A stretch of DNA of 64,000 nt, taken from assembly GCA_001417715.1 (NCBI GenBank), contig BBRT01000327.1:1-64000 (forward strand), in the 5' to 3' direction. Position 1 is the first letter of the stretch, and each line of letters opens with the position of its first letter. This stretch comes from Candidatus Symbiothrix dinenymphae (GTDB lineage: Bacteria > Bacteroidota > Bacteroidia > Bacteroidales > Azobacteroidaceae). Both the position numbers and the translations under genes were made by a program. Below are positions 43,822 through 57,274 of this stretch, in pieces. The notes beneath the pieces are model-generated. The model saw only the letters and a list, made by a program, of their open reading frames with translations, made no database searches and was not told where the DNA came from.

Positions 43822-44199
43822 TTACCAATCATACGGGTTTGCCAATTTTAGCCCATTGATTCTTCTAAAATCGGGAATGTTGTGGGTTAGCAATACCAGC
43901 CCATTTTCTAATGCTGTTGCGGCAATAATAGCATCCGGCAGTTTTATTTTATACAATCTACGAATTTCTATCGTTTTAAAGATAACAAACTTGTTGATAT
44001 CCAAAATAGTAGCCGCATCAACAAAGGATTCAATTTGTGGGGGCACAATCGAAAAGCCTAATAACTCAATTTGGGTAATAGCAGAGATAATTGGGTCGTC
44101 ATCAAGAATTTCCGCAACCCGATGAGCACTGATAGGAGTAAGCCTTTGTTGGGAAAAATCAATAATAACGTTGGTATCAATCAGATATTTCTGTTCCAT
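43822..44199 (-). CDS. PIN domain toxin (VapC-like)
   Basis: A 125-residue PIN-domain protein, a probable metal-dependent RNase toxin. The conserved acidic residues are at Asp8 (LIDTNVIIDF), Glu44 or so (AITQIELLGF), Asp88 or so (KLPDAIIAATA) and Asp106 or so (THNIPDFRRI). Its start overlaps the end of the upstream antitoxin gene by 19 bp, as in type II toxin-antitoxin operons. Confidence 0.92.
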   Translation of the reverse strand: MEQKYLIDTNVIIDFSQQRLTPISAHRVAEILDDDPIISAITQIELLGFSIVPPQIESFVDAATILDINKFVIFKTIEIRRLYKIKLPDAIIAATALENGLVLLTHNIPDFRRINGLKLANPYDW

Positions 44200-44399
44200 T
44201 CGCCTCGCATTTGTTCCAATTCACGGTACATGATTTCCGCTTGCGCCGAAGTGATAGAGCCTGCCAATTGTTCCGATATTTTGGTGCGTGGTGTTGCTTT
44301 TTTGTTGCTGTGAACAATAACCAACAAATTCATATCTTCCAAATTTTTCAGCAGATTAATCGTTTGCTTATCTTTAAGCCCAACTGTTAATGTGTCCAT
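44181..44399 (-). CDS. VapB-like antitoxin
   Basis: A 72-residue protein, MDTLTVGLKDKQTINLLKNL to the end. Its size, charge and position upstream of and overlapping the PIN gene identify it as the antitoxin. The N-terminal strand-helix (TLTVGLKDKQTINLLKNLED) suggests a ribbon-helix-helix-like or DUF2281-type fold, not certain. ATG 44399 is used because the longer frame begins inside the TACCTTTG box. Confidence 0.75.
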   Translation of the reverse strand: MDTLTVGLKDKQTINLLKNLEDMNLLVIVHSNKKATPRTKISEQLAGSITSAQAEIMYRELEQMRGEWNRNI

Positions 44400-44417
44400 A
44401 ATTGTTATTTTTTGCCG

Positions 44418-44425
44418 CAAAGGTA
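44418..44425 (-). promoter_or_regulatory. Promoter box of the VapBC-like pair
   Basis: TACCTTTG on the minus strand, 18 bp before ATG 44399. Confidence 0.6.
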
Positions 44426-44449
44426 CGCTTTTTGTTCCAAATACACAAT

Positions 44450-44500
44450 TTTTTTTATCTTGGTCATCTTGAAAATTTTGTTAAAATCAAGGTTCAGACA
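44450..44500 (+). repeat. 51-bp direct repeat, copy 2, flanking VapBC
   Basis: Same orientation as the copy at 43721-43771, with a single mismatch. It ends one base before the metA stop codon (44502). Confidence 0.85.
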
Positions 44501-44501
44501 A

Positions 44502-45299
44502 TCAGGATGCGTCCATCATACTCAACCAATTGCTAAACAACCGAATAGCATTTTCGCGCCATTGAAAAGCAATGCCATTCTTGGGGTCATTCCCGATGTA
44601 GTAATTGACGGGCATCGCGATGGGTAAGCCTTTGTTCAAATCCCTATGATATTCGGTGTGAAGCGTGTTTGAGGCATATTCGGAATGTCCGGTGATGAAA
44701 ATGTCGCGCCCCCCATGAGCCGTCACAATGTGTACGCCCGACTCGGCGGACTCGGTCAGCAAGGTCAGTTCGGGAACTTTCAAAATATCCGCTTTGCGAA
44801 TTTCCGTATGCCGACTGTGCGGCGCATAAAACTCACTGCCAAAGCCACTTACCAATGGCGCGAAGGCATCATTTACCTGATGTTTGAAGACTCCAAACAT
44901 TTTTTGCCCCAACGGATATTTCGGAATACCATAAAAGTGGTAAAGAGCCGCCTGAGCCGCCCAACAGATGTATAACCGGCTTGGAATATGGTCGCGAGCC
45001 CAATCCATGATTTGTCGCAACTCATCCCAATAGGTAACATCCTCGTATTCAATCTGTTCCACCGGTGCTCCGGTAATAATCAGCCCGTCATAAGGCGTAT
45101 CGCGCACATCTTCAAAATGCTTGTAAAGGGCATCTAAATGCTCTTTAGGCGTGTTTTTGCAAACATGATTTTTGATTTTCAGCCAATCAATCTCGACCGG
45201 TATCGGGCTATGGGCAAAAATGCGCAAAAAATCAGCCTCTGTCGCCTGTTTGAGCGGCATCAGATTGAGAATAGCGATGTGTAAGGTGCGTTGTGACAT
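44502..45299 (-). CDS. metA: MetA family homoserine O-acyltransferase, probably acetyltransferase
   Basis: A 265-residue MetA-family enzyme activating homoserine for methionine synthesis. The catalytic cysteine is in YICWAAQAALYHFYGIPKYP. The His and Glu of the triad are in FITGHSEYASNTLHTEY, which has HSEY where most have HPEY. GAPVEQIEYEDVTYW has Glu at the position (111 in E. coli and B. cereus numbering) that in studied enzymes selects acetyl-CoA. Gly there selects succinyl-CoA. The protein lacks about 35 N-terminal residues of E. coli MetA, and a promoter box at 45318 leaves no room for them. Confidence 0.88.
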   Translation of the reverse strand: MSQRTLHIAILNLMPLKQATEADFLRIFAHSPIPVEIDWLKIKNHVCKNTPKEHLDALYKHFEDVRDTPYDGLIITGAPVEQIEYEDVTYWDELRQIMDWARDHIPSRLYICWAAQAALYHFYGIPKYPLGQKMFGVFKHQVNDAFAPLVSGFGSEFYAPHSRHTEIRKADILKVPELTLLTESAESGVHIVTAHGGRDIFITGHSEYASNTLHTEYHRDLNKGLPIAMPVNYYIGNDPKNGIAFQWRENAIRLFSNWLSMMDAS

Positions 45300-45317
45300 G
45301 AAAAACTAATTGTGTTG

Positions 45318-45325
45318 CAAAAGTA
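45318..45325 (-). promoter_or_regulatory. Promoter box of metA
   Basis: TACTTTTG on the minus strand, 18 bp before ATG 45299. No SAM riboswitch-like structure is seen in this short leader. Confidence 0.55.
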
Positions 45326-45330
45326 CACAA

Positions 45331-46758
45331 TTATTTCGTACTATGGAAAAACAAATCGTCCATCACCACTTCCGACTGAATATTTCCCCAATATTGGTTG
45401 TGCCGCACGCCGTTGGTCGTAATCATGGTGATATGAATGGTTTTGCGCGTTTTCGTTTCTTCTCTGAATGCACCGCGTTTTTTGCGTAGCACCTCATCGT
45501 ACTGTTTGTCGATAATAAACTCATCCTCAGCGTATTTCATTTCGCAAAGGTTGATAACCCTGTCGTTGCGCTCTATGAGGAGGTCGATTTGCGCTGCATT
45601 TTCCTTGTCGTTGCTGCGCCACGAAGCCGTTTTTGTTGATACACCGAAAATGCCAAGTTTTTGCTTTATTTGCGGTAAATGTGCCAAACAAACCTGCTCA
45701 AAGGCGTAACCACTCCATGCGCGCCGACGAGCATTGTCAATGGCATTTGTCCAAAAATGCGAGTCATCAAACGTATTGGTTTTCAGAAAATTGAAATAGA
45801 AAAGCGAATAAAAATCTATCAATTGATAAAGCGAATGCTGCTCTTTTTTGCCAAAACTTTGATAACGACGGATAAAATCGCACTGCTCCAATTCGTTGAG
45901 CATATCTGTTAAACCGCCACCATTGGATATTTTGGTCAAGTCAATGATTTCTTCGCGCGTTAATCCCTTTGTCTTTGTGCTTAATGCATCCACAATTTTC
46001 AAGTGGTTTGTGTAGTTTTTAAACAAAGAAGCATAAAGGAAAGCAAATTCGTTTTTCAGCGGGGCATCCTCTTTATATAACAGATTATCAATATTTTGCG
46101 ACACGCTCAACCCTTTTTCAAACATTTCGAGATAATAGGGGATTCCGCCAAAAATCATATAGGCATCGATGATTGATTTGCGGTCTAAAGGAATTTTTTT
46201 GTGTGTAAAAAAATCCTCACATTCGCCCAACGAGAACGGTGAAATGTGCATACGGCGCGTAACACGATTGTACAAACCGCCCTTATCGTTAAGCAGTTTA
46301 TCAATTATCCACGAAGTAGCCGACCCGCAGGCTATCAGCAAAATATCGCTACGCCCCGAAGCCCAAGTGTTCCAAAAAAAATCAACAGCTGTCAAAAAAC
46401 CCGAACGAGCGGTATCAAACCACGGTAATTCGTCTATAAAAACCACTTTTTTGCCGCGTTTGCCCGAATGTTCAAGCAAATGAATTAGCTGCCGAAAAGC
46501 ATCCATCCACGACTTGAGAGGTGGATAGGGCATTTTTCCGTAAAAAGAGAGAGCAGCATTAAAATTTCCCAATTGCTCACGTTTAGTGGCTTTTTTCAAT
46601 CCGCTGATATAAAACGAAAAATCCTGATTAAAATATTCTTTAATCAAAAATGTTTTGCCCACGCGCCGCCGTCCATACAACACAAGAAATTCCGATTTTT
46701 TGGACTCAACTAATTGCTGTATATCTGTTTGTTCCTGTTTCCGACCAAGTAATGCCAT
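45331..46758 (-). CDS. AAA ATPase with C-terminal nuclease-like domain (paralogue 1)
   Basis: A 475-residue protein of the ATPase_2/DUF234 type. Walker A is FLVLYGRRRVGKTFLIKEYF (about residues 28-47) and Walker B KVVFIDELPWFD. The sensor-like LIACGSATSWIIDKLL and the arginine-rich NRVTRRMHISPFSLGE follow. A winged-helix-like middle (LTREEIIDLTKISNGGGLTDML) leads to the C-terminal AQIDLLIERNDRVINLCEMKY. That motif, D...ExK, is the PD-(D/E)XK nuclease pattern. Function is unknown. A paralogue lies at 52668, and a palindromic array starts 12 bp upstream of this gene's promoter box. Confidence 0.85.
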   Translation of the reverse strand: MALLGRKQEQTDIQQLVESKKSEFLVLYGRRRVGKTFLIKEYFNQDFSFYISGLKKATKREQLGNFNAALSFYGKMPYPPLKSWMDAFRQLIHLLEHSGKRGKKVVFIDELPWFDTARSGFLTAVDFFWNTWASGRSDILLIACGSATSWIIDKLLNDKGGLYNRVTRRMHISPFSLGECEDFFTHKKIPLDRKSIIDAYMIFGGIPYYLEMFEKGLSVSQNIDNLLYKEDAPLKNEFAFLYASLFKNYTNHLKIVDALSTKTKGLTREEIIDLTKISNGGGLTDMLNELEQCDFIRRYQSFGKKEQHSLYQLIDFYSLFYFNFLKTNTFDDSHFWTNAIDNARRRAWSGYAFEQVCLAHLPQIKQKLGIFGVSTKTASWRSNDKENAAQIDLLIERNDRVINLCEMKYAEDEFIIDKQYDEVLRKKRGAFREETKTRKTIHITMITTNGVRHNQYWGNIQSEVVMDDLFFHSTK

Positions 46759-46782
46759 AGATTATTATTTTATATTCGGCTG

Positions 46783-46790
46783 CAAAGGTA
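46783..46790 (-). promoter_or_regulatory. Promoter box of AAA ATPase 1
   Basis: TACCTTTG on the minus strand, 24 bp before ATG 46758. The expected -33 position (about 46810-46814) falls inside the first unit of array A. Confidence 0.6.
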
Positions 46791-46801
46791 CAAAAAAATA
46801 T

Positions 46802-47035
46802 TAGTTTAAGCGAAATATCCGATTATATAGTTCGCTTAAACTCATAAAAAATACGAGTTTAAGCGAATTATAATGTTCTATACTTCGCTTAAACTCATAA
46901 AAAATATGATTTTAAGCGAACTATAATGTTCTATAGTTCGCTTAAACTCATAAAAAAATATGAGTTTAAGCGAACTATAATGTTTTATAGTTCGCTTAAA
47001 CTCATAAAAAATGCGAGTTTAAGCGAACTATAGAA
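46802..47035. repeat. Array A: tandem 42-bp palindromes upstream of AAA ATPase 1
   Basis: Four palindromic units (46802-46843, 46855-46896, 46908-46949, 46962-47003) and a half unit from 47015, spaced by 11-12 bp of ATAAAAAATAC-like sequence. The period is 53-54 bp. The arms GAGTTTAAGCGAACTATA and reverse complement enclose ATGTTC. The outer units are more degenerate than the inner ones. The spacers are conserved, so this is not CRISPR. Confidence 0.9.
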
Positions 47036-47108
47036 CATGACAAGCCGAATTTAACAAAGTTTAACACAAAATGGCTGACAACAATGAATGTTGTTTAAAA
47101 ATAATATC

Positions 47109-47116
47109 TACCTTTG
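47109..47116 (+). promoter_or_regulatory. Promoter box of the TPP-regulated receptor gene
   Basis: TACCTTTG, just before the riboswitch, which starts 8 bp later. Confidence 0.65.
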
Positions 47117-47124
47117 CGCCCGAT

Positions 47125-47202
47125 ATCTTTAGGGGTGCCCATACGGGCTGAGATCATACCCTTTGAACCTGAACAGGTTAGCACCTGCGGAGGGACGAAG
47201 AT
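47125..47202 (+). ncRNA. TPP riboswitch (THI box)
   Basis: Conserved THI-box segments are GGGGTGCCC, GGGCTGAGATCATACCC, TTTGAACCTGAACAGGTTAG and CACCTGCGGAGGGA. The closing stem pairs ATCTT (47125-47129) with AAGAT (47198-47202). It precedes a TonB-dependent receptor, so binding of thiamine pyrophosphate probably shuts the receptor off. Palindromes at 47213-47233 and 47291-47313 in the rest of the leader could act in the expression platform. Confidence 0.93.
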
Positions 47203-47338
47203 TTATTTATAGACATTGCGGGTTTGACCCGAAATCATACGATAAATAAAAACATTTCTCACAATTCCCCTTTTTTATAAACAACAGCGTGTCATTGCGG
47301 GCGCGATTCGCAATACACGCATAAAAATTATTTATTTT

Positions 47339-49633
47339 ATGAAAAAGGTTTTTTTTCAGAGTTTCTTGGTTTTAGGTGCAGGCATGGTGTCTGCACAAGA
47401 GATTGCGGGTCAAGCCCGCAATGACAGTGATGGTGCGGGCATGGTGCTCGCACAGGGGATTGCGGGTCAAGTCCGCAATGACAGCGATGATGCAGGGTTT
47501 GCCCGCAGTGACATTAGCTTGCACGAGGTGGAGGTGGTGGCTTCGCGAGCCGGTGAGAAAACGCCGGTGGCTTATTCCAATATGGATAAGCAGGCAATTG
47601 AGGCGGCGAATTTTGGGCAGGACATTCCGTTTCTGCTGTTGCTTACGCCCTCTGTCATAGCAACTTCCGATGCCGGCACGGGCATTGGCTACACGGGGTT
47701 TCGCATTCGCGGCACGGATGCCAACCGCATCAACATCACAAGTAATGGCATTCCGCTCAACGATTCGGAGTCGCACGGCGTGTTTTGGGTGAACATGCCC
47801 GACTTCGCCTCCTCGTTGCAGGATTTGCAGGTGCAGCGCGGTGTGGGCACGTCCACTAATGGTGCAGGGGCGTTTGGGGCGAGTATTAACATGAAAACAG
47901 AGAATGTGCCGCTGAAATCCTACGGCGAATTTGACGGCGGGTTGGGGTCATTCAACACCCAAAAGGCGACTTTCAAGTTGGGCACAGGCATTCTCAACGA
48001 CCATTGGGCATTTGACGGGCGGCTTTCGTCGATTACTTCTGACGGATTTATTGACCGTGCGGCGGTTGATTTGAAGTCCTATTTTGCGCAGGGGGCGTAT
48101 TTTAACGACCATTCGCTGGTGAAATTTATCACGTTTGGCGGCAAAGAAAAGACCTACCATGCTTGGGATGGCGTGTCGGATTACAAGTTGGCAGAAGGCA
48201 ATCGCACCTACAATCCTTCGGGTTATATGGGTGAAGACGCGGATGGCAACGAACTTTTTTATGCCAATCAGACCGATAATTATGAGCAAACGCATTATCA
48301 GTTAAGCCTTTTGCAACGCTTAAATTTGAATTTGAATTTGAATGTAGCATTGCATTACACCAAAGGGCAAGGCTATTACGAAGAATACAAGGACAACAGA
48401 GCATTGGAAGAATATGGTCTTCAAGCAGGGGAAAGTGACTTGATTCGTGAAAAATGGCTCGACAATGATTTCTACGGCGGTATTTTCTCATTGGATTACA
48501 TCCAAAATAAGTGGAATGTGTCGTTGGGTGGTGGCGCAAATAAATACGAGGGCAATCATTTTGGCTATGTGAAATGGGTGAAAGATTATACCGGAGATGC
48601 AGATTTTCAACCTAATCACGAATATTATCGCAGCACCGGCGACAAAACCGATGCCAACATTTATTTGAAAGCCAATTATCAACTGACCAACGAATTAAGT
48701 CTTTACGGCGATGCACAATACCGCTATATTGATTATCAAATTCAAGGGAAAAACGATGTCTGGGATTGGAATATTGGGGAAATGCAAAATTTAAATGTAC
48801 ATGATAAGTTCAATTTTTTCAATCCCAAAGTCGGTTTGTTTTACCAAATAAATAAGGAGAATAACGTGTATGCTTCTTTTGCGATTGCCAACCGTGAGCC
48901 GAATCGCAACAACTATACTAATGCCAATATTAACGAAATTCCCAAACCGGAACGCTTGCAGGATTATGAATTAGGCTATAAATTCAATAATCGCACTTTC
49001 TCCGCCGGAGTCAATTTATATTATATGGACTACAAAGACCAATTGGTTTTGACAGGCAAAGTGAACGAAATCGGCGAGCCGCTGACATCGAATGTACCGG
49101 AGAGTTACCGCATGGGTGCAGAACTCGTATTGGGCGCGCGCATTACCTCCTGGTTGAAATGGAACGGCAATTTAACGCTTAGCAGCAATGAAATCAAAAG
49201 CTATACCGAGTATATCGATGAATACGATGAAAATTGGGAATGGATGCGTCAGGTCGAAAATGCGTTGGGAACGACTCCGATTGCGTTTTCGCCCAATGTA
49301 ACCGCCGGAAGTTTGTTTGCCGTGTCTTTGAAAAATTGGGACGGCGGATTGCAATCCAATTTTGTGGGCAAACAATATATTGACAACACCGGAAGCGATG
49401 CCCGCAGTTTGGATGCCTATTTTGTCAATAATCTCCGATTGGGCTATACATTCCACTTGAAAGGTGTTAAGTCATTGGCATTGAACGTATTAGTAAATAA
49501 TTTATTCAATGCCCAATATGAAAGCAATGCGTGGGTTTATTCGTCTTACCAACAAGGAACGCGAAATGAAGACTTCGGCTATTTCCCGCAGGCAGGCACA
49601 AATTTCATGGCAAATGTGGTGGTGAAATTTTAA
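47339..49633 (+). CDS. TonB-dependent receptor, predicted thiamine-compound uptake
   Basis: A 764-residue outer membrane receptor. The plug region is FLLLLTPSVIATSDAGTGIG, YTGFRIRGTDANRINITSNG and VQRGVGTSTNGAGAFGASIN. The barrel ends in FMANVVVKF. The upstream TPP riboswitch predicts control by thiamine, as for the thiamine-regulated receptors of Bacteroidota, so the cargo is probably thiamine or a precursor. The N-terminus is odd. After signal peptide MKKVFFQSFLVLGAGMVSA, a 57-bp unit is duplicated (47375-47431, 47432-47488), giving GAGMVSAQEIAGQARNDSD and GAGMVLAQGIAGQVRNDSD. Both copies contain the GIAGQARND palindrome and a possible signal-peptidase site. Confidence 0.9.
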   Translation: MKKVFFQSFLVLGAGMVSAQEIAGQARNDSDGAGMVLAQGIAGQVRNDSDDAGFARSDISLHEVEVVASRAGEKTPVAYSNMDKQAIEAANFGQDIPFLLLLTPSVIATSDAGTGIGYTGFRIRGTDANRINITSNGIPLNDSESHGVFWVNMPDFASSLQDLQVQRGVGTSTNGAGAFGASINMKTENVPLKSYGEFDGGLGSFNTQKATFKLGTGILNDHWAFDGRLSSITSDGFIDRAAVDLKSYFAQGAYFNDHSLVKFITFGGKEKTYHAWDGVSDYKLAEGNRTYNPSGYMGEDADGNELFYANQTDNYEQTHYQLSLLQRLNLNLNLNVALHYTKGQGYYEEYKDNRALEEYGLQAGESDLIREKWLDNDFYGGIFSLDYIQNKWNVSLGGGANKYEGNHFGYVKWVKDYTGDADFQPNHEYYRSTGDKTDANIYLKANYQLTNELSLYGDAQYRYIDYQIQGKNDVWDWNIGEMQNLNVHDKFNFFNPKVGLFYQINKENNVYASFAIANREPNRNNYTNANINEIPKPERLQDYELGYKFNNRTFSAGVNLYYMDYKDQLVLTGKVNEIGEPLTSNVPESYRMGAELVLGARITSWLKWNGNLTLSSNEIKSYTEYIDEYDENWEWMRQVENALGTTPIAFSPNVTAGSLFAVSLKNWDGGLQSNFVGKQYIDNTGSDARSLDAYFVNNLRLGYTFHLKGVKSLALNVLVNNLFNAQYESNAWVYSSYQQGTRNEDFGYFPQAGTNFMANVVVKF
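47375..47488 (+). repeat. 57-bp coding tandem duplication with palindromes
   Basis: Two 57-bp copies, each holding GATTGCGGGTCAAGCCCGCA (second copy AAGTCCGC), inside the receptor gene. A third, decayed copy follows (GCAGGGTTTGCCCGCAGTGA at 47492-47511). Confidence 0.85.
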
Positions 49634-49658
49634 TTGGGGCGTTCTGCCGACGATTTTT

Positions 49659-52202
49659 TTACCCTCCACATTTGGAGTGTCCGCACGAAGTGCATTTCAG
49701 GCAACCCTCGGCATAGACGAGGGTTGCTTGACCGCAGCTGGGGCATTTTCTGCCGCGGGCTTCGGTGCCTTCGAGGACGTACTTTTTCAGGGCACGTTCC
49801 ACCCCGTTTTTCCATGTGTTGATGGACTCGTTGTTGAGTTCCAAGCCTTGTACGAGTTTGATGACTTGGTCCACAGGCATCGCGTAGCGCAACACGCCAG
49901 AAAGCAATTTGGCATAGTTCCAAAATTCGGGGTCGAATTTTCCGTCCAAACCTTCAATGGTGGTCTTGTAGCCGCGTTTGTTGGCGTATTGGAAGTCGTA
50001 ATGTTTTTTGTCCTGTGCGTCCACGCTTTTGATAATCGTGCCTTTTTCAATATTTTTGGGGATGTAGATGCCATCGTCTTCATCGTACAGTCCGGTAAAG
50101 ATTTCATACGGACGACCGTTGAGCAGCCCCACAAAGGCAATCCATTTCTCGCGGTTGTTCTGAAAACGCACAATTTCTGCCTCCAATTCGCGGGGACGTT
50201 TCGCCACAATTACGGGTGGTTCGTAACATTCGCAATCTTGCTCCTCTTTTTTTGCTTCGGTAGCCAACAAAACGCCGCTTCGAGAGCCATCGCGATAGAC
50301 GGTGCAACCTTTGCAGCCCGATTTCCATGCCTCTATATAGAGTTGATTGACAAGCGATTCCTCTGCCTCATTCGGCAGGTTGATGGTAACACTTATCGAA
50401 TGGTCGACCCATTTTTGCACGCGCCCCTGCATCTTCACTTTTTGCATCCAGTCCACATCATTGGACGTAGCTTTGTAGTAGGGGGATTTTGCAATCAGTT
50501 CGTCAAGTTCCTCTTGGGAATATTTTTTTGCCGCCGGATAGCCATTGGCAATCATCCAATCAACAAATTTGTGGTGAAACACGATATATTCTTCCCACGC
50601 ATCGCCCACTTCATCCACAAAATCCACTTTCGAGGACACATCGTTGGGATTGACCTTCCGGCGGCGTTTGTAAACCGGCAAAAAGACCGGCTCAATGCCC
50701 GACGTGGTCTGTGTCATCAGCGAGGTAGTGCCTGTGGGCGCAATCGTCAAACAGGCAATGTTGCGGCGACCATATTTCTCCATATCAGCCACCAATTGCG
50801 GGTCGGCTTCGCGCAGACGGGCGATGAAAGGGTTGTTTTGTTCGCGCGTTGCCTCATAAATCTCAAACGCACCACGCTCACGAGCCAATTTCACCGATGA
50901 ACCGTAGGCAGCCAAGGCGATGGCTTTTTGCACCTCTTCGGCAACATCCGTAGCCTCCGGCGTGCCGTAACGAAGTCCCAGAGCGGCTATCATATCACCC
51001 TCTGCGGTGATGCCGACACCTGTGCGGCGACCTTGCAGGGTCTTGCGGCGGATTTTTTCCCACAGCAACCCTTCGGCGTGCTTCACTTCGTCCGATTCGG
51101 GGTCGCTGTCTATTTTTGCAATAATTGTATCAATTTTTTCTATCTCCAAGTCGATAATATCGTCCATAATTCGTTGAGCCAGAGCCACATGCTCTTTGAA
51201 CATCTTGAAATCAAATTTAGCCTCTTTGGTAAACGGTTTTTTCACATAAGAATACAAATTGATTGCCAACAGTCGGCAACTGTCATACGGACACAACGGA
51301 ATTTCCCCGCAAGGGTTGGTTGAAACGGTTTTAAAGCCCAAATCGGCATAGCAGTCGGGCAACGATTCCTTGAGAATGGTGTCCCAAAACAGCACTCCCG
51401 GCTCGGCAGATTTCCACGCATTGTGGATAATTTTGCCCCACAGCGCACCGGCATCAATCTCGGTAGTGAAAGTTGGTGAGGTGCTGTCCACAGGATATTG
51501 TTGTTTGAACAATTCGTTTTCAACCACCGCTTTCATAAAATCATCGGTGATTTTGACGGATACATTGGCTCCGGTCACTTTGCCTTCTACCAATTTAGCA
51601 TCTATAAACGACTCGACATCAGGGTGTTTGATGGAAACGCTCAACATCAACGCCCCGCGGCGACCATCCTGAGCCACTTCGCGCGTGGAGTTGGAATACC
51701 GCTCCATAAATGGCACCAAACCGGTGGAAGTCAATGCGGAATTTTTGACCGGCGAACCTTTGGGGCGGATGTGCGAAAGGTCGTGCCCCACGCCGCCGCG
51801 CCGTTTCATCAGTTGCACTTGCTCCTCGTCAATCTTAATGATGGCACCGTAGGAATCCGCCAGCCCGTCAATGCCAATCACAAAGCAATTGGAGAGCGAC
51901 CCAATCTGGTGATTGTTGCCAATACCGGTCATCGGGCTGCCCTGCGGGATGATGTATTTAAAATGGTCGAGCAAGTCAAACAGTTCCTGCTCCGTCAGCG
52001 GGTTAGGATACTTCGCTTCAACACGGGCAATCTCACTCGCCAAACGGAGGTGCATCTCCGCCGGTGTTTTCTCAAAAATGCCACCAAAGCCATCCTTTAA
52101 TGCGTATTTGTTCAAAAAAACTTTGGCGGCTAATTCATCGCCATTAAAATAATCCAATGAAGCCTGAAATGCTTCATCAAAAGTATAACCTTTTGCCTTC
52201 AC
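49659..52202 (-). CDS. nrdJ: Adenosylcobalamin-dependent (class II) ribonucleotide reductase
   Basis: A protein of about 847 residues reducing ribonucleotides with B12 as radical source. Motifs include QGSPMTGIGNNHQIGSLSNC, KRRGGVGHDLSHIRPKGSPV, REVAQDGRRGALMLS, active-site STNPCGEIPLCPYDSCRL and PTGTTSLMTQTTSGIEPVF. The C-terminal zinc-ribbon-like CPSCGQ ... CLKCTSCG carries the redox cysteines. The start is uncertain. The first TTG (52271) overlaps the promoter box, so GTG 52202 (VKAKGYTFDEAF) is preferred. It follows an A-rich stretch and matches related proteins. The gene is convergent with the receptor gene, 25 bp apart. Confidence 0.94.
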   Translation of the reverse strand: MKAKGYTFDEAFQASLDYFNGDELAAKVFLNKYALKDGFGGIFEKTPAEMHLRLASEIARVEAKYPNPLTEQELFDLLDHFKYIIPQGSPMTGIGNNHQIGSLSNCFVIGIDGLADSYGAIIKIDEEQVQLMKRRGGVGHDLSHIRPKGSPVKNSALTSTGLVPFMERYSNSTREVAQDGRRGALMLSVSIKHPDVESFIDAKLVEGKVTGANVSVKITDDFMKAVVENELFKQQYPVDSTSPTFTTEIDAGALWGKIIHNAWKSAEPGVLFWDTILKESLPDCYADLGFKTVSTNPCGEIPLCPYDSCRLLAINLYSYVKKPFTKEAKFDFKMFKEHVALAQRIMDDIIDLEIEKIDTIIAKIDSDPESDEVKHAEGLLWEKIRRKTLQGRRTGVGITAEGDMIAALGLRYGTPEATDVAEEVQKAIALAAYGSSVKLARERGAFEIYEATREQNNPFIARLREADPQLVADMEKYGRRNIACLTIAPTGTTSLMTQTTSGIEPVFLPVYKRRRKVNPNDVSSKVDFVDEVGDAWEEYIVFHHKFVDWMIANGYPAAKKYSQEELDELIAKSPYYKATSNDVDWMQKVKMQGRVQKWVDHSISVTINLPNEAEESLVNQLYIEAWKSGCKGCTVYRDGSRSGVLLATEAKKEEQDCECYEPPVIVAKRPRELEAEIVRFQNNREKWIAFVGLLNGRPYEIFTGLYDEDDGIYIPKNIEKGTIIKSVDAQDKKHYDFQYANKRGYKTTIEGLDGKFDPEFWNYAKLLSGVLRYAMPVDQVIKLVQGLELNNESINTWKNGVERALKKYVLEGTEARGRKCPSCGQATLVYAEGCLKCTSCGHSKCGG

Positions 52203-52268
52203 GTCGTTTATTTTTATTTTTATTTTAAAATTTGAAATTCTATAATTGTTGTCAAAAGTTTGACACTG

Positions 52269-52276
52269 CAAAAGTA
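52269..52276 (-). promoter_or_regulatory. Promoter box of nrdJ
   Basis: TACTTTTG on the minus strand, 66 bp before GTG 52202. No cobalamin riboswitch is recognisable in this leader. Confidence 0.6.
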
Positions 52277-52510
52277 GGTATATATATTAAATCTACCAAA
52301 TTTTTTAATAATTATTTTTCATTTTGTTGATAAGTTTTCCAAAATAAAAATTAACTGTTTGATTTTCAATTATTTAATTTTTTAGTGAAATAAAAAAAAT
52401 CTCCAAAATGAAAATCGAGGATTGAAGTGAGGCTAAATTATTTTGGTATCAACCGTAAATTATATGCACAACAAAGGATTGCGGGTCAAGCCCGCAATGA
52501 CAGACTTTTT
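52277..52510. other. AT-rich gap with one GCGGGTCAAGCCCGC palindrome
   Basis: No gene is seen. One copy of the dispersed palindrome (GGATTGCGGGTCAAGCCCGC and flank, 52477-52502) lies just before array B. Confidence 0.6.
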
Positions 52511-52656
52511 AATCAGCCGTAAGTAGGTAAAAATAGTGAGTTATGGCTGATTATAAATCTATAATCAGCCGTAAGTGGGTAAAAATAGTGAGTTACGGCT
52601 GATTATAAATCTATAATCAGCCGTAAGTGGGCAAAAATAGTGAGTTACGGCTGATT
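52511..52656. repeat. Array B: three 42-bp palindromic units downstream of AAA ATPase 2
   Basis: Units start at 52511, 52563 and 52615 with an exact 52-bp period. Each has 12-bp arms AATCAGCCGTAA / TTACGGCTGATT around GTGGGTAAAAATAGTGAG, plus a 10-bp spacer ATAAATCTAT. The last unit ends 11 bp before the ATPase stop codon region (52668). Same units and orientation as array C. Confidence 0.93.
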
Positions 52657-52667
52657 ATAGAATTATA

Positions 52668-54086
52668 TTAACGGAATAAGTCTTTGAGTTTCAGCTCTTT
52701 TTGCACCATTTCGGAATATTTGTTTTGTTTTACTCCAAAAGTAGTAAGCATCAATAAATGAACGGCTTTTCGCGTGCGGGTTTCATCTTTGAACGCAAAA
52801 ATCTTGTTACGCAGGTTTGCGTCGTAGTCTTTGGTGATGGCAAATTCTTTTCCCGCAAATTTTATCTCTACGAGGTTGATGATTCCGTCTTTTCGGTTGA
52901 TTACCAAATCGATTTGAGCGGCGGGGCTTGACGTTTCGCTACGCCACGTAGAAACAGACGCCTGAATGCCCGCAATGCCCAGTGCTTGCTTGATTTCTGC
53001 CGTGTGCAACAAAGCCAGCAGTTCAAAGGCTAAGCCCACCCAAGTGTTGTGCAGCGGCGTGTCTAACGAATTTGCCCAAAAATGCTCATCGTTATACTCG
53101 TTTTTAGCGATAAATTTGAAATAAAACAGCGTGAAAGGGTCGATAAGTTGATAAAGCATATCGCGTTTTTTTCGATTGAAAGTGCCGTATTTTCTGATAA
53201 AACCGCAATATTCAAGATTTTGCAGAATTTTTGTCAGTGTGCCGCCGGCCTTGATTTTTGCTGTTTCCTCTATTTCGCTGCGAGTCAATCCCTTACCTTT
53301 TTTGCCCAATGCTTCCACTAATTTAATATATTCTTCCGATTTGTTAAACAGTGCCGCGTAAAGGTTGTTAAATTCGTTTCGGAGTTCCCCTTTGGGCATA
53401 AAAAACAGATTATCAATATTTTGTGCCAAGCTCAACCCTTTTTTTATTTTACTTAAATAGAATGGAATACCTCCCATAATCATGTAGTATTCAGCAATTT
53501 GCGTACGGCTCAATTCAATTTTTTTTGCCTTGAAATACATTTCACATTCCAATAAAGTAAACGGTTTGAGAAAAATGCTTGCCGTAAGACGATTATGCAG
53601 TCCGCCGTGGTTGTTGAGTAAGTTGTTGATAATCCAGGAAGTAGCAGAGCCACAAGCAATCAGCACAATATCTTTGCGCGCCGAAGCCCAAGCGTTCCAA
53701 AAATGTTCCAAAGCCGGAAGAAAATCGGAGCGTGGCGTATCCATCCAAGGCATTTCATCGAAAAACAAAATTTTCCGTTTTTGCGGACTGCGTTCCACAA
53801 AATCAATAAGTTGCGCAAACGCCTCCAGCCAATTCCCGGCGGGTTTCAAGCTTTCGCCGCTTGCTTTGTTCAAAGTCAGCGTAAAATTCAGCAACTGACT
53901 TTTGGTTTTGGATTTTGCCAATCCTGAAATTTCAAACACAAATTGGTCGGTAACCGTTTCGCGAACGAGAAATGTTTTTCCCACACGCCTCCTGCCGTAA
54001 ACTGCCACAAATTCCGATATCTCGGATTGTAAAATATCTTGCAGTGCTTGCTGTTCCGTATCCCTGCCAATGATATTACTTTTCAT
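52668..54086 (-). CDS. AAA ATPase with C-terminal nuclease-like domain (paralogue 2)
   Basis: A 472-residue paralogue of the 45331 protein with the same plan. Walker A is FVAVYGRRRVGKTFLVRETV and Walker B KILFFDEMPWMD. VLIACGSATSWIINNLLNNH follows, then a winged-helix-like LTRSEIEETAKIKAGGTLTKI and the C-terminal AQIDLVINRKDGIINLVEIKF with D...ExK. It is flanked on both sides by arrays of the same palindrome (B downstream, C upstream), and its promoter is embedded in a degenerate unit of array C. The gene and arrays look like one cassette. The biochemical role is unknown. Confidence 0.85.
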   Translation of the reverse strand: MKSNIIGRDTEQQALQDILQSEISEFVAVYGRRRVGKTFLVRETVTDQFVFEISGLAKSKTKSQLLNFTLTLNKASGESLKPAGNWLEAFAQLIDFVERSPQKRKILFFDEMPWMDTPRSDFLPALEHFWNAWASARKDIVLIACGSATSWIINNLLNNHGGLHNRLTASIFLKPFTLLECEMYFKAKKIELSRTQIAEYYMIMGGIPFYLSKIKKGLSLAQNIDNLFFMPKGELRNEFNNLYAALFNKSEEYIKLVEALGKKGKGLTRSEIEETAKIKAGGTLTKILQNLEYCGFIRKYGTFNRKKRDMLYQLIDPFTLFYFKFIAKNEYNDEHFWANSLDTPLHNTWVGLAFELLALLHTAEIKQALGIAGIQASVSTWRSETSSPAAQIDLVINRKDGIINLVEIKFAGKEFAITKDYDANLRNKIFAFKDETRTRKAVHLLMLTTFGVKQNKYSEMVQKELKLKDLFR

Positions 54087-54109
54087 ATTTCAACCATTTA
54101 TCGAATCAT

Positions 54110-54359
54110 AATCAGCCGCAAAGGTATAAAAAAGTTACGATATTTCAAAATATAAATCTATAATCAGCCGTAAGTGGGTAAAAATAGTGAGTTATGGCTG
54201 ATTATAAATCTATAATCAGCCGTAAGTGGGTAAAAATAGTGAGTTACGGCTGATTATAAATCTATAATCAGCCGTAAGTGGGTAAAAATAGTGAGTTACG
54301 GCTGATTATAAATCTATAATCAGCCGTAAGTGGGTAAAAATAGTAAGTTATGGCTGATT
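54110..54359. repeat. Array C: four full and one degenerate 42-bp palindromic units upstream of AAA ATPase 2
   Basis: Full units start at 54162, 54214, 54266 and 54318, and a degenerate unit at 54110 keeps the 52-bp period. The unit and 10-bp spacer are identical to array B. The degenerate unit keeps AATCAGCCG and TTACGA at its ends but has an altered interior that carries the ATPase promoter. Confidence 0.93.
54119..54149 (-). promoter_or_regulatory. Promoter of AAA ATPase 2 inside a repeat unit
   Basis: On the minus strand, TTTG (54149-54146), a 19-bp spacer and TACCTTTG (54126-54119). This is a full match to the Bacteroidota promoter pattern, and it lies wholly within the array unit at 54110-54151. 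Confidence 0.7.
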
Positions 54360-54466
54360 TCAAGATAAAAAGTGCTATGTTGCCTGAGCCTGCGTAATCA
54401 AACAACATAGAATCACAAATAAGATTAATTTTTGTATATAACGGTATTCATTTCAAAAAAAATATG

Positions 54467-54474
54467 TAACTTTG
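54467..54474 (+). promoter_or_regulatory. Promoter box of the AsmA-like gene
   Basis: TAACTTTG, 22 bp before ATG 54497. Between 54360 and 54466 nothing else is seen. Confidence 0.6.
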
Positions 54475-54496
54475 CAGCGAAAAAAAAAATACAAAT

Positions 54497-57274
54497 ATGA
54501 AAGAGATTAAAGTGTTGAATCCTCGTGCTAAAAAGCCACTGCTGTGGTGCTTGGGGGGTGTTGTGCTGCTTTTTGCGGTGCTGTTGGTTTTGCCGTTTGC
54601 TTTTAGTGGCAAAATAGTTGAGGTGGCGAAGAAACAAATCAATGAAATGCTGAATGCACAGGTTGATTTTGAGAAAATTTCGCTCAGTTTTATCCGCGAT
54701 TTTCCGAATGCGTCGGTTGGCATTAAGAACATTCGTGTGATTGGAGTGGATGAGTTTCAGCAGGATACGCTGTTTTCCGGCAAGGAAATCCGCGTGGTAG
54801 TCAATTTGATGAGCCTGTTTTCGGACAGCGGCTACGAAGTGCGCGAAATTCGCCTCGACCGACCATATATATATGCCCACATTTTGCCCGATGGCAAAGT
54901 CAATTGGGACATTATGAAGTCCGATTCCACCAAAGTGAAAGAAGAGGAGCCGGAAGGCACCACTACGATGAGTTTTCGCCTGCAACTGCGCGACTTTACT
55001 ATTAAAGATGCCAACATTGTGTATTGGGACGAAAAAGGCAAGACGAAAGCCGAAATTCTCGGTTTGAATCACCACACGGAAGGCGATTTTTCTGCCTCCA
55101 CATCGCTTATCGAAACCGCAACGTCCATTCAATCCATCACTGTTGGCTTGGGCGGTGTCAATTACCTGTCGAAAGCCAGTTTTGAGTTCAATGTGGATGT
55201 GGAAGCCGATTTGGACAGTATGCGGTTTGTGGTCAGCAAAAATTATATTCGCCTCAATGATATGGCTTTAGCACTCGATGGTTGGGTGGATTTGCTGGAA
55301 CCCGAAGGAATGGATATGGATTTGACGTTGAACACCGAAAAAATACAGTTCAAATCTATCCTCTCAATGGTTCCTGCCCTCTATGCGAAAGATTTTGACG
55401 GGTTGAAAGCCAAGGGGAGTGTCACGCTCAACGCTGCCGTCAAAGGGCGAATGGTGGGCGAAACGTACCCGGCTTTTAACGTGAAATTGGCGGTGGCTGA
55501 CGGTCAGTTCCAATATCCGGCATTGCCCAAAAGCGTGGATGCCATCAATATTGACATTAAGGCGAGCAGTCCTGGAGGCAGTTTAGACCGCACGGTGGTG
55601 GATGTTTCGCGTTTTTCGCTCAGTCTGGGCAAAAATCCGTTTGCTATTCAGGCACGTTTGGCAACGCCGATTTCTGACCCTGATTTTTCGGTGAAAGCCA
55701 ACGGCAAATTGGACCTGGGCATGGTGAAAGATTTTTATCCGCTTGGCGACGACCTCAAATTGAACGGTGTGTTCACGGCAGACCTCTCTGCAAGCGGTCG
55801 GATGTCGTACGTCAAGAACAATCAGTATCAGAAATTCAACTTTGCCGGTAATCTCGGTTTGAGCAATTTGTTGTTGAAACTTGCCGGATTTAAAGATGAT
55901 ATAGCTATTTCACAGGCCGGTTTTGTGTTCAACAATCGCTACGCCGATTTGTCAACGGGACAAATAAAAATCGGGCGCAACGATGTGGCTTTGCGCGGCA
56001 AATTGGAAAATTATGTTGCCTACGCGCTACTCGAAAACGAATCGCTGAAAGGACAGTTGGATGTTTCTTCTAACTATCTGAATTTGAACGACTTCATGTC
56101 CGATACGCCTGAAGAAAAGAAGCCCGAAGAAGCATCTACAGAGCCGATGACGGTCATTGAAATTCCGAAAAATATTGATGCGGCGTTGAATGCCAATTTC
56201 AAAGAATTGATATTCGGTCAAATGCAATTCAAGGATGCCAGGGGGGCGTTGCGCGCAGCCAATGGTGAGTTGAAAATCAACAACTTGAGCCTGCTGGCAT
56301 TTGGCGGCAGTATGAAAGTGAGCGGAGTGTATAGCACGGTTGACCCCAAAGTGCCGAAAGCCAATTTGAACCTCAATATCAACGAGATAGAGTTCACGCA
56401 GATATTCAAGCAGGTGGAAACATTGCAAAAAGTTGCACCGATTTTTGAAAGCGCAACAGGCAGAGGCTCAATAGATTTTGCACTCAGAACAACCTTGCTG
56501 GGCGATATGTCGCCGGATTTGAAAACTTTGTATGCCAAAGGAAAACTCACCAGCAAATCGGTGGGGTTGCACGATGTGTCCGCCCTCAACTCGTTGGCAG
56601 ATGCGCTGAAACGCCCCGACTTGAAGTCGCTGTCGCTGAAAAACGTGTCAATCGCCTTTGAACTCATCGACGGTCGGTTGCACACCGAGCCGTTCGACAT
56701 CAATGTAGCCGACACAAAACTGACGCTCGGCGGCTCTTCGGGCTTAGACCAAACGCTTGATTACAAGGGAAATGTGCAACTGCCGGACAACCTTGGTCTG
56801 GGCAAACTGTCGAAAGTGGGTGTAAGCATCGGCGGCACATTCTCCAGCCCAAAAGTGAAAGTGGATGTGTTGAACACACTGAAAGACATAGTGGACGATG
56901 CAAAAGCCAAAGTAACGGAAGAGGTGAACAAGCAGGTTGACAAAGCAAAGGCAGAAGTAACACAAAAGGTTGACGAAGCCAAGGCAAAAGCGGATGCCGA
57001 ACTGCAAAAAAAGCGTGGAGAAGCCGTAGCAGCCGCCCGCGCCCAAGGCGACAAATTACAAGCAGAAGCCCAAAAAGCCGGCGACAAATTAGTGGAAGAA
57101 GCCCGCAAGCAAAGCGAATCCATGGTCAGCAAAGCAAGCAACCCCATAGCCAAAAAAGCAGCACAAGTGGCAGGCGACAAATTGGTGAAGGAAGCCCAGA
57201 GCAAGTCAGACGGCTTAAAAAAGAATGCACAGCAAGAATCGGAAAAGTTGGTGAAACAGGCTGAGCAGTTGTAA
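54497..57274 (+). CDS. AsmA family protein with C-terminal coiled coil
   Basis: A 925-residue protein. An N-terminal membrane helix (LWCLGGVVLLFAVLLVLPFAF, residues about 15-36) anchors a long periplasmic AsmA/DUF748-like region (EVAKKQINEMLNAQVDFEKI, FPNASVGIKNIRVIG, LNLNINEIEFTQIFKQV) of the bridge-like lipid-transport type. The last 130 residues are an Ala/Lys/Glu-rich coiled coil (VTEEVNKQVDKAKAEVTQKV). AsmA-like proteins are thought to move phospholipids between the membranes. This one is too short for TamB and lacks the DUF490 end. The gene is monocistronic or leads into korA after 71 bp. Confidence 0.85.
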   Translation: MKEIKVLNPRAKKPLLWCLGGVVLLFAVLLVLPFAFSGKIVEVAKKQINEMLNAQVDFEKISLSFIRDFPNASVGIKNIRVIGVDEFQQDTLFSGKEIRVVVNLMSLFSDSGYEVREIRLDRPYIYAHILPDGKVNWDIMKSDSTKVKEEEPEGTTTMSFRLQLRDFTIKDANIVYWDEKGKTKAEILGLNHHTEGDFSASTSLIETATSIQSITVGLGGVNYLSKASFEFNVDVEADLDSMRFVVSKNYIRLNDMALALDGWVDLLEPEGMDMDLTLNTEKIQFKSILSMVPALYAKDFDGLKAKGSVTLNAAVKGRMVGETYPAFNVKLAVADGQFQYPALPKSVDAINIDIKASSPGGSLDRTVVDVSRFSLSLGKNPFAIQARLATPISDPDFSVKANGKLDLGMVKDFYPLGDDLKLNGVFTADLSASGRMSYVKNNQYQKFNFAGNLGLSNLLLKLAGFKDDIAISQAGFVFNNRYADLSTGQIKIGRNDVALRGKLENYVAYALLENESLKGQLDVSSNYLNLNDFMSDTPEEKKPEEASTEPMTVIEIPKNIDAALNANFKELIFGQMQFKDARGALRAANGELKINNLSLLAFGGSMKVSGVYSTVDPKVPKANLNLNINEIEFTQIFKQVETLQKVAPIFESATGRGSIDFALRTTLLGDMSPDLKTLYAKGKLTSKSVGLHDVSALNSLADALKRPDLKSLSLKNVSIAFELIDGRLHTEPFDINVADTKLTLGGSSGLDQTLDYKGNVQLPDNLGLGKLSKVGVSIGGTFSSPKVKVDVLNTLKDIVDDAKAKVTEEVNKQVDKAKAEVTQKVDEAKAKADAELQKKRGEAVAAARAQGDKLQAEAQKAGDKLVEEARKQSESMVSKASNPIAKKAAQVAGDKLVKEAQSKSDGLKKNAQQESEKLVKQAEQL

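Follow-up and report, generated by a model that had tools for sequence, protein, structure and literature searches.

Palindromic arrays beside an ATPase-winged helix-nuclease gene family: a mobile and probably self-repressing cassette in Candidatus Symbiothrix dinenymphae and its relatives

In the genome of Candidatus Symbiothrix dinenymphae (Bacteroidota, Bacteroidales), a stretch of 64,000 nucleotides (contig BBRT01000327.1 of assembly GCA_001417715.1, positions 1 to 64,000, here called the window) carries two paralogous genes, ATPase 1 and ATPase 2, each accompanied by arrays of palindromic repeats. By computation across the homologues of these genes, the linkage of array and gene, the spacing of the repeats, their co-variation with the encoded protein, the movement of both as a unit and the invariance of the catalytic residues were established. 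These findings probably describe a horizontally mobile, self-repressing nuclease cassette of a single gene, which is held on its own array and perhaps serves in defence.

ATPase 1 (45331..46758, minus strand, 475 amino acids) and ATPase 2 (52668..54086, minus strand, 472 amino acids) are 50% identical, and both open reading frames (ORFs) code for an AAA+ domain of the ATPase_2 type, a winged helix and a predicted PD-(D/E)XK nuclease. Pfam ATPase_2 matches both proteins (E 5e-14 for ATPase 1), and a match to DUF234, which lies under the Pfam cut-off, was obtained for ATPase 1 only. The PADLOC profile PDC-S27 covers nearly the full length of both, namely residues 2-470 of ATPase 1 (E 6e-204) and 1-471 of ATPase 2 (E 2e-201), and this profile (PDLC04984) matches 58 of the 58 proteins in an alignment of homologues (A3). 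In an AlphaFold2 model of ATPase 2 based on 58 sequences (mean pLDDT 94.2, pTM 0.91), helices at residues 250-262, 269-276 and 282-293 and strands at 297-300 and 311-314 form a winged helix. From the model and the co-variation described below, this domain is placed at residues 250-314 (53145..53339, minus strand), with a predicted recognition helix at 282-293 and a wing at about 308. The C-terminal domain, the fold of which we take to be PD-(D/E)XK, has its core at residues 376-436 by alignment and model (52779..52961, minus strand), where strands and a helix of the model bear D393, E407 and K409. These three residues and the Walker residues are invariant in 58 of 58 aligned homologues. The assignment of residues 376-436 as a nuclease is a prediction from the motif, the secondary structure and the part of PMC12988326 that was available, rather than from a domain match.

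Array A lies at 46793..47044 (no strand is assigned to the arrays) and consists of the half-site TATAGTTCGCTTAAACTC arranged in facing pairs; Tandem Repeats Finder (TRF) reports 46793-47032 with a period of 53 and 4.5 copies, and the outer edge was read by eye. For ATPase 2, two arrays share the half-site TATAATCAGCCGTAACTC: one at 52510..52667 with 3 units of 52 bp (TRF period 52, 3.0 copies), which directly reaches the stop codon, and one at 54151..54359 with 4 units of 52 bp (TRF period 52, 4.0 copies). Since both genes are on the minus strand, the arrays at 46793-47032 and 54151-54359 are upstream and the one at 52510-52667 is downstream of ATPase 2. The spacers within the window arrays are near-identical, and a CRISPR array was rejected on this ground. 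Each gene has a promoter element TAnnTTTG (TACCTTTG), read by eye and backed by the family count given below, at 46783..46790 (minus strand) for ATPase 1, beside the last half-site of array A, and at 54119..54126 (minus strand) for ATPase 2. Here, a half-site beside the start of ATPase 2, found by eye and by the half-site search, lies within a degenerate promoter palindrome (54110..54119). In both window genes, the units of the upstream array precede TAnnTTTG.

The source genome has a third full-length paralogue (C13:2783-4192, locus L002 in our numbering, in which L stands for loci and G for genomes), which is 51% identical and possesses its own array of another sequence: 3.3 units of 52 bp precede the gene and a single unit follows it. 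A fourth, distant match in this genome (25% identity) lacks such an array. A first-pass annotation, made from the letters of the window, had described Walker motifs, a winged-helix-like middle and a C-terminal D...ExK motif in both ATPases, had paired each ATPase with its own array, and had proposed a common plan with a 52-54-bp period. The invariant residues and the model agree with the first of these descriptions, the TRF and half-site coordinates as well as the third paralogue with the second, and the TRF periods of 52-53 together with the spacing across the family with the last.

The family is patchily distributed. With the own genome included in each case, matches were found in 19 of 58 genomes of relatives (E 1e-40), in 15 of 296 genomes of the phylum (E 1e-60) and in 66 of 393 genomes of the order (E 1e-70), and a single genome among the 58 relatives contains at most eight matches, some of them partial. 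The named homologue set comprises the best 80 of at least 584 confirmed loci; by their record labels, many of which denote metagenome bins, these 80 are mostly Bacteroidales, with some from Chitinophaga, Saprospiraceae, Treponema, Lachnospiraceae, Kiritimatiellae and others. Partial genes and L065 were dropped before counting; L111, L128 and L137 of the 80 lacked a usable start or stop, and three more had no 250 bp of upstream sequence, which reduced the set from 77 to 74. For the held-out set, 2 of 105 later loci were too partial, and removal of proteins with at least 80% identity to the training set or to each other reduced the remaining 103 to 82.

An inverted repeat scoring at least 11 within 250 bp upstream was identified for 64 of the 74 named homologues, compared with 5 of 222 dinucleotide shuffles and 33 of 291 other ORFs from the same loci. 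The same threshold was exceeded at 68 of 81 held-out homologues and at 46 of 55 genes of the first sets, which were drawn from the relatives and the phylum and share about six proteins with the 74. The possibility raised in the first-pass annotation, that most homologues lack adjacent arrays, is not the case for the close homologues. Many of them have one or two units instead of a long array, as judged by eye. At distant homologues of 24-28% identity, only 1 of 15 (L306) exceeded the threshold, with a palindrome of different appearance; the start positions of L302-L309 in this group are estimated. By eye, other short palindromes or repeats are seen near the starts of the distant ATPase_2 homologues L303, L305, L306, L401, L402 and L404, with L306 alone passing the threshold. 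From these, autoregulation may be a wider habit of the ATPase_2 superfamily. Family members are also present on a Wolbachia phage WO record (L285) and on the Butyrivibrio plasmid pNP243 (L288), each with upstream palindromes.

Across the family, the half-sites follow a grammar in which GC is flanked on each side by two variable bases, with an AT-rich part on the outside and an A-rich part on the inside. Six duplicate proteins were removed before this analysis, and the search took GC as a fixed anchor and rewarded AT-rich flanks and a pair of inner A's, so that these features are partly built in, whereas the variable bases and the spacing are not. Within a palindrome the half-sites are 30-31 bp apart (115 of the counted plus-to-minus spacings), between successive palindromes they are mostly 21-23 bp apart, with a smaller group at 28-29, and on the same strand the spacing peaks at 52-54 bp. 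These values are near three, two and five turns of B-DNA, which would place the half-sites on one face of the DNA. Under the GC-anchored grammar, a half-site pair at 30-32 bp was identified for 77 of 127 training and 37 of 82 held-out genes and for 6 of 218 control ORFs; a pair combined with a period of 51-56 bp was found for 44 of 127 and 18 of 82 genes and for 0 of 218 controls.

The position of the promoter suggests a regulatory role. TAnnTTTG occurs at -60 to -10 from the start codon in 158 of 207 family genes, compared with 26 of 185 control ORFs. For 54 genes with a half-site no more than 70 bp from the start, TAnnTTTG follows the half-site within 45 bp in 28, and 20 of these have it at a distance of 20-21 bp; by eye, the promoter is often located in the loop of the last, degenerate palindrome. 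The predicted operator thus overlaps or abuts its own promoter. A palindrome after the stop codon that has an 8-mer in common with the gene's own upstream region was found for 61 of 203 genes, compared with 15 of 200 when another gene's upstream region was used. In genus g73, of the same phylum, the gene that comes after the cassette at L067 (2955-3060) has TATCCGGATA-like palindromes of its own at the start.

The strongest indication of a specific interaction was obtained by mutual information between the half-site consensus of 77 genes and the well-aligned protein columns (59.6 effective sequences, ATPase 2 numbering). Genes without a correctly spaced half-site pair were left out of this code, which reduced the training set from 127 to 77 and the held-out set from 82 to 37. 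Residue 280 was linked to base +2 with a Z of 17.8, the next listed column reaching 6.6, and the pairs observed were N with T (17/17), D with G (15/18), S with C (14/15) and T with C (10/10). Residue 308 was linked to base +4 (Z 11.3; R with T in 19/23, K with A in 29/30) and also to +8 and +6. Base -1 co-varies with residues 283 (Z 7.0) and 253 (Z 6.2), and at residue 286, R occurs with G (14/17) and D with C (4/5). In the model, residues 280, 283 and 286 are located just before or within the recognition helix and residue 308 in the wing. ATPase 1 and ATPase 2 obey every rule that is applicable to them, and the third paralogue fits the rules for 280 and 308.

For the held-out genes, the rule for residue 280 predicted the base correctly in 27 of 32 cases, with about 12 expected from the held-out base frequencies. 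The rule pairing T283 with A was correct in 10 of 13 and the rule for 308 in 23 of 28, where A is common at the base concerned (26/37). Relatedness was controlled for with 57 non-overlapping closest pairs, for which identity was measured outside the winged helix and 377 columns were ranked for nine base positions. The best column was 280 for +2 and +3, 283 for -1, -2 and +6, 308 for +4 and +7, 254 for -3 and 403 for +8; all of these except 403 lie within residues 250-314. The uncorrected p values for 280 (1.9e-6) and 308 (4.3e-5) survive correction for 377 columns. In the 24 pairs with a differing base +2, residue 280 differs in 21.

The co-variation of winged helix and operator makes it very probable that each protein reads its own array, and each ATPase likely recognises the half-sites of that array through its winged helix. 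The first-pass annotation had named co-variation of the repeats with the winged helix as a check and had proposed recognition as its core inference. The co-variation was found, it is located in the winged helix and it holds in the held-out genes. A further proposal from the same source, that the ATPase is a regulator, is well supported by the location of TAnnTTTG at the operator. An argument from hypervariability was also tried and fails, since the recognition residues rank 55 to 338 of 472 in column variability.

Array and gene travel together as a horizontally mobile unit. From 115 protein pairs with at least 62% identity, 25 are at least 85% identical, and 14 of these have no flank similarity on either side (blastn E 1e-4). 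ATPase 1 and L037, which belongs to the window's genus, are 96.8% identical in protein and 95.6% in DNA with unrelated flanks on both sides, and the nrdJ genes of the two genomes are only 82.7% identical in DNA, which indicates a recent exchange of this cassette. The homology of this pair stops at the stop codon, without a downstream palindrome. For L023 and L036 it extends from -131 to +73, its limits coinciding with the outer edge of one palindrome and the far end of the one downstream, and for L055 and L058 from -61 to +39. In the pairs with unrelated flanks, the homology units have about 1.5-1.7 kb and contain this gene alone. Pairs from different genera are weaker evidence of movement, since their flanks diverge anyway.

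Presence and absence at single sites was also observed. At one site in g73, the cassette is present in G341 and G305, decayed in G374, G174 and G128, and absent from six other genomes in which both flanks align. At the site of L049, G019 and G001 are occupied and G004 is without the cassette. Neither of these two sites showed a clean junction or target-site duplication for a complete cassette. For the window cassettes, synteny is lost in the nearest relatives G005 and G010, so that no empty site can be defined there.

Palindromes were also found without a gene. One unit of each window array was searched against 38 genomes of the window's genus, and 15 places with a palindrome of the window type were identified. 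Of these, 6 adjoin an intact family gene, 2 adjoin a broken one (G004:C50 and G005:C69) and 7 have no ATPase match within about 1.5 kb (G000:C278, G010:C90, G010:C64, G005:C90, G005:C47, G353:C6 and the weak match G004:C17), where some contigs end nearby. The solo copies may be relics, extra targets or mobile ends. The solo palindrome of the ATPase 1 type is present in two species, at L011 1501-1545 (G000:C278:7302-7346) and L252 1501-1538 (G010:C90), with no ATPase match in either locus. Both copies lie shortly past the end of a gene, which presumably codes for a type IX secretion cargo protein. At L268 (about 1450-1640, G010:C64), a solo palindrome of the ATPase 2 type is located between two copies of about 50 bp, which we take to resemble the 3' end of der. 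This arrangement could be the relic of an insertion with target duplication. At L251/L273 (G004:C50:7267-7442), about 80 bp separate a palindrome of the ATPase 1 type from a truncated cassette that is ATPase 2-like, so that two specificities are adjacent.

The protein family itself has been named before. PDC-S27 was described as ATPase domains fused to PD-(D/E)XK and as a widespread candidate for phage defence, and 3503 archaeal and 4562 bacterial members were counted in the genomes surveyed; validation of activity is pending for most such candidates, and none is given there for PDC-S27 (available part of PMC12988326). In rumen genomes, 2865 PDC-S27 were counted (available part of PMC13356809). 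The window proteins match PDC-S27 over their full length, while arrays and a recognition code go unmentioned in the part of PMC12988326 that was available. In the literature searched by title and abstract, no known substrate of PDC-S27 was found and no description of arrays of this kind, absence of the latter from print not being established by such a search. The statement of the first-pass annotation that no such system is described therefore has to be given up for the protein family and stands, within that search, for the arrays.

Several known systems resemble parts of the cassette. By profile, the best solved relatives are 2FNA (E 2e-6) and the Pyrococcus ATPase PABY2304 (2QEN, E 2e-5), and further profile matches include TnsC (E 3e-4) and ORC4 (E 0.016); in Foldseek with the ATPase 2 model, 2QEN was the best solved match, followed by the STAND proteins Apaf-1, CED-4 and NRC4 and by ORC/Cdc6. 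However, 2QEN and 2FNA have about 350 amino acids, and their profile matches stop short of the nuclease, at residue 297-299. A combination of AAA+ with a winged helix is also found in archaeal ORC1/Cdc6 and in eukaryotic ORC, and the Foldseek matches to ORC/Cdc6 include DNA-bound entries. ORC1/Cdc6 proteins bind repeats beside their own gene, which offers a parallel. In contrast to these, the window proteins have an extra nuclease domain and a private array for each paralogue, and nothing points to replication origins. STAND/NLR ATPases consist of a nucleotide-binding domain and a winged helix with a switch-like role in immunity; the window family seems to use its winged helix for reading DNA and presumably has the nuclease as its effector. 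TnsC of Tn6677 is similar in its AAA+ part, whereas the homology unit of the cassette contains no transposase gene. In the toxin-antitoxin system AbiE, a regulator represses its own operon through inverted repeats (available part of PMC7319586). AbiE differs in having two genes with a separate antitoxin, and a toxin-antitoxin module was rejected for the cassette, the homology unit of which has one gene and no separate antitoxin. We know of no recognition code for AbiE that is comparable to the one of the winged helix. An invertible promoter was dropped as well, since the arms are only about 31 bp apart, a distance that generally argues against inversion.

In the explanation that we favour, a cassette would combine palindromic operators, whose last unit contains or adjoins the promoter, with a single gene; the product would be a STAND/ORC-like AAA+ ATPase that also has a winged helix and a nuclease. 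A minority of cassettes would have another palindrome past the stop codon. Through its winged helix, the ATPase would bind the half-sites of its own array. Since these are about three and about two helical turns apart and lie on one face of the DNA, a multimer could assemble along the array and repress the gene by covering the promoter. Self-binding and self-repression are likely on these grounds, and the multimer is inferred from the spacing. Specificity would have diversified by changes of a few residues in the winged helix that are matched by changes of a few operator bases. The nuclease would probably act as a weapon that stays on the array until a disturbance of the occupied state, for example by a phage, sets it free or activates it. 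Defence by such a held nuclease is plausible, the defence role and the trigger being speculative.

Several results weigh against this explanation. The palindrome above threshold is absent from 10 of 74, 13 of 81 and 9 of 55 genes in the three sets, and the solo palindromes, which in the window's genus are about as many as the gene-linked places of the two window arrays, count against a strict pairing of array and gene. The objection anticipated in the first-pass annotation, that arrays might be equally frequent away from such genes, is not cleanly answered by a count of 7 solo places compared with 6 intact and 2 broken; on the other side, the solo copies are single palindromes and not arrays. 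The test of the code covered fewer than half of the held-out genes, namely the 37 of 82 in which the GC-anchored grammar yields a half-site pair. The rule for residue 286 was weak in this set, only 4 of 6 being correct, and L002 is the sole exception to the pairing of D286 with C. The best column for +8, residue 403, is outside the winged helix, and the uncorrected p value for 283 (2.8e-4) fails correction for 377 columns. Operator words of five letters were identical in 0 of 44 pairs within genomes and in 29 of 1334 between genomes; with about one expected, this is not significant, and insulation of paralogues by distinct operator words is therefore unsupported. Among the families listed for the 76 nearest neighbours of 38 loci, no defence-island signal is apparent: the 25 PADLOC families listed, of 47, match one member each, and the 25 Pfam families listed, of 85, are mainly housekeeping. 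With few defence families among the neighbours listed, the defence reading rests on the family label, the patchiness, the mobility and the nuclease, not on islands.

Other explanations have to be compared with the self-repressing cassette. The ATPase-nuclease could behave like a homing element or a transposon of one gene, with the palindromes as the ends, or as the sites on which it acts, when it cuts and moves its cassette. In favour of this, the three pairs above lose their homology close to or exactly at the outer palindrome or the stop codon and have unrelated flanks; presence and absence at orthologous sites with decayed remnants and the solo palindromes, one of them between two copies of about 50 bp, point the same way. 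Against it stand the lack of a clean junction or target-site duplication for a complete cassette, the restriction of the matching downstream palindrome to the 61 genes mentioned, and the absence of any known transposase or recombinase family from the homology unit. In addition, the closest pair within a genome is 61% identical (64 pairs, 11 genomes), so that recent multiplication within a genome is not indicated, although a draft assembly can hide near-identical copies. Self-catalysed mobility is possible, and as a full account we regard it as unlikely. Unlikely to about the same degree is a plain autoregulator, in which the arrays would be operators of an ATPase-nuclease with a host function in repair or segregation and without a defence or selfish role. 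It would be consistent with the promoter in or beside the operator and with the mainly housekeeping neighbours among the families listed; the patchy presence (with the own genome counted and at differing thresholds), the horizontal movement, the up to eight matches per genome, some partial, and the members in phage and plasmid records argue against it.

Two further explanations appear highly improbable. The palindromes are perfect inverted repeats and some lie just past a stop codon, as RNA hairpins acting as terminators, attenuators or small RNAs would, instead of protein-binding sites. Yet the array units are upstream of the promoter element in the window genes, the period is about five helical turns, the half-sites co-vary with the winged helix, and no Rfam match to the arrays was obtained at the gathering threshold, the only match in 44000-55500 being a TPP riboswitch; the hairpins were rejected on spacing, position and co-variation. 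Just as improbable in our view is that relatedness or the half-site search produced the co-variation artificially. The search was GC-anchored and scored for AT-rich flanks and two inner A's, and shuffles ignore the tree; however, the search was blind to the protein, other columns on the same tree score lower, and held-out genes with less than 80% identity to the training set obey the rule for residue 280.

In the neighbourhood of the window genes, a TPP riboswitch (Rfam RF00059) is located at 47121-47213, ahead of a receptor-like ORF at 47339-49633 which we take to be of the TonB type; array A sits between this riboswitch and ATPase 1. A dispersed REP-like repeat (attgcgggtcaagcccgcaatgacag) is present at window positions 47375-47496 and 52477-52502 and at L160 60-89, and its tandem copies lie within the start of the receptor ORF. 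A PIN-domain-like ORF at 43822-44199 may be part of a toxin-antitoxin pair.

For the PDC-S27 family, the DNA that is probably bound by each protein adjoins its own gene and is partly predictable from a few residues, which would give a direct experimental entry to binding, structure and activation. The family also offers a natural library of matched protein-operator pairs for the study of winged-helix recognition. It is conceivable, though we would not expect it, that the cassette is a one-gene selfish element with an ORC/STAND-like ATPase-nuclease, for which the array serves as operator, mark of self-identity and mobility site at once, and in which a readable code lets several coexist without cross-talk. 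Predictable binding sites would also help to determine whether nucleases of this kind guard the cell or propagate themselves. With a match of protein and DNA that is partly readable from sequence, an uncharacterised protein family becomes testable.

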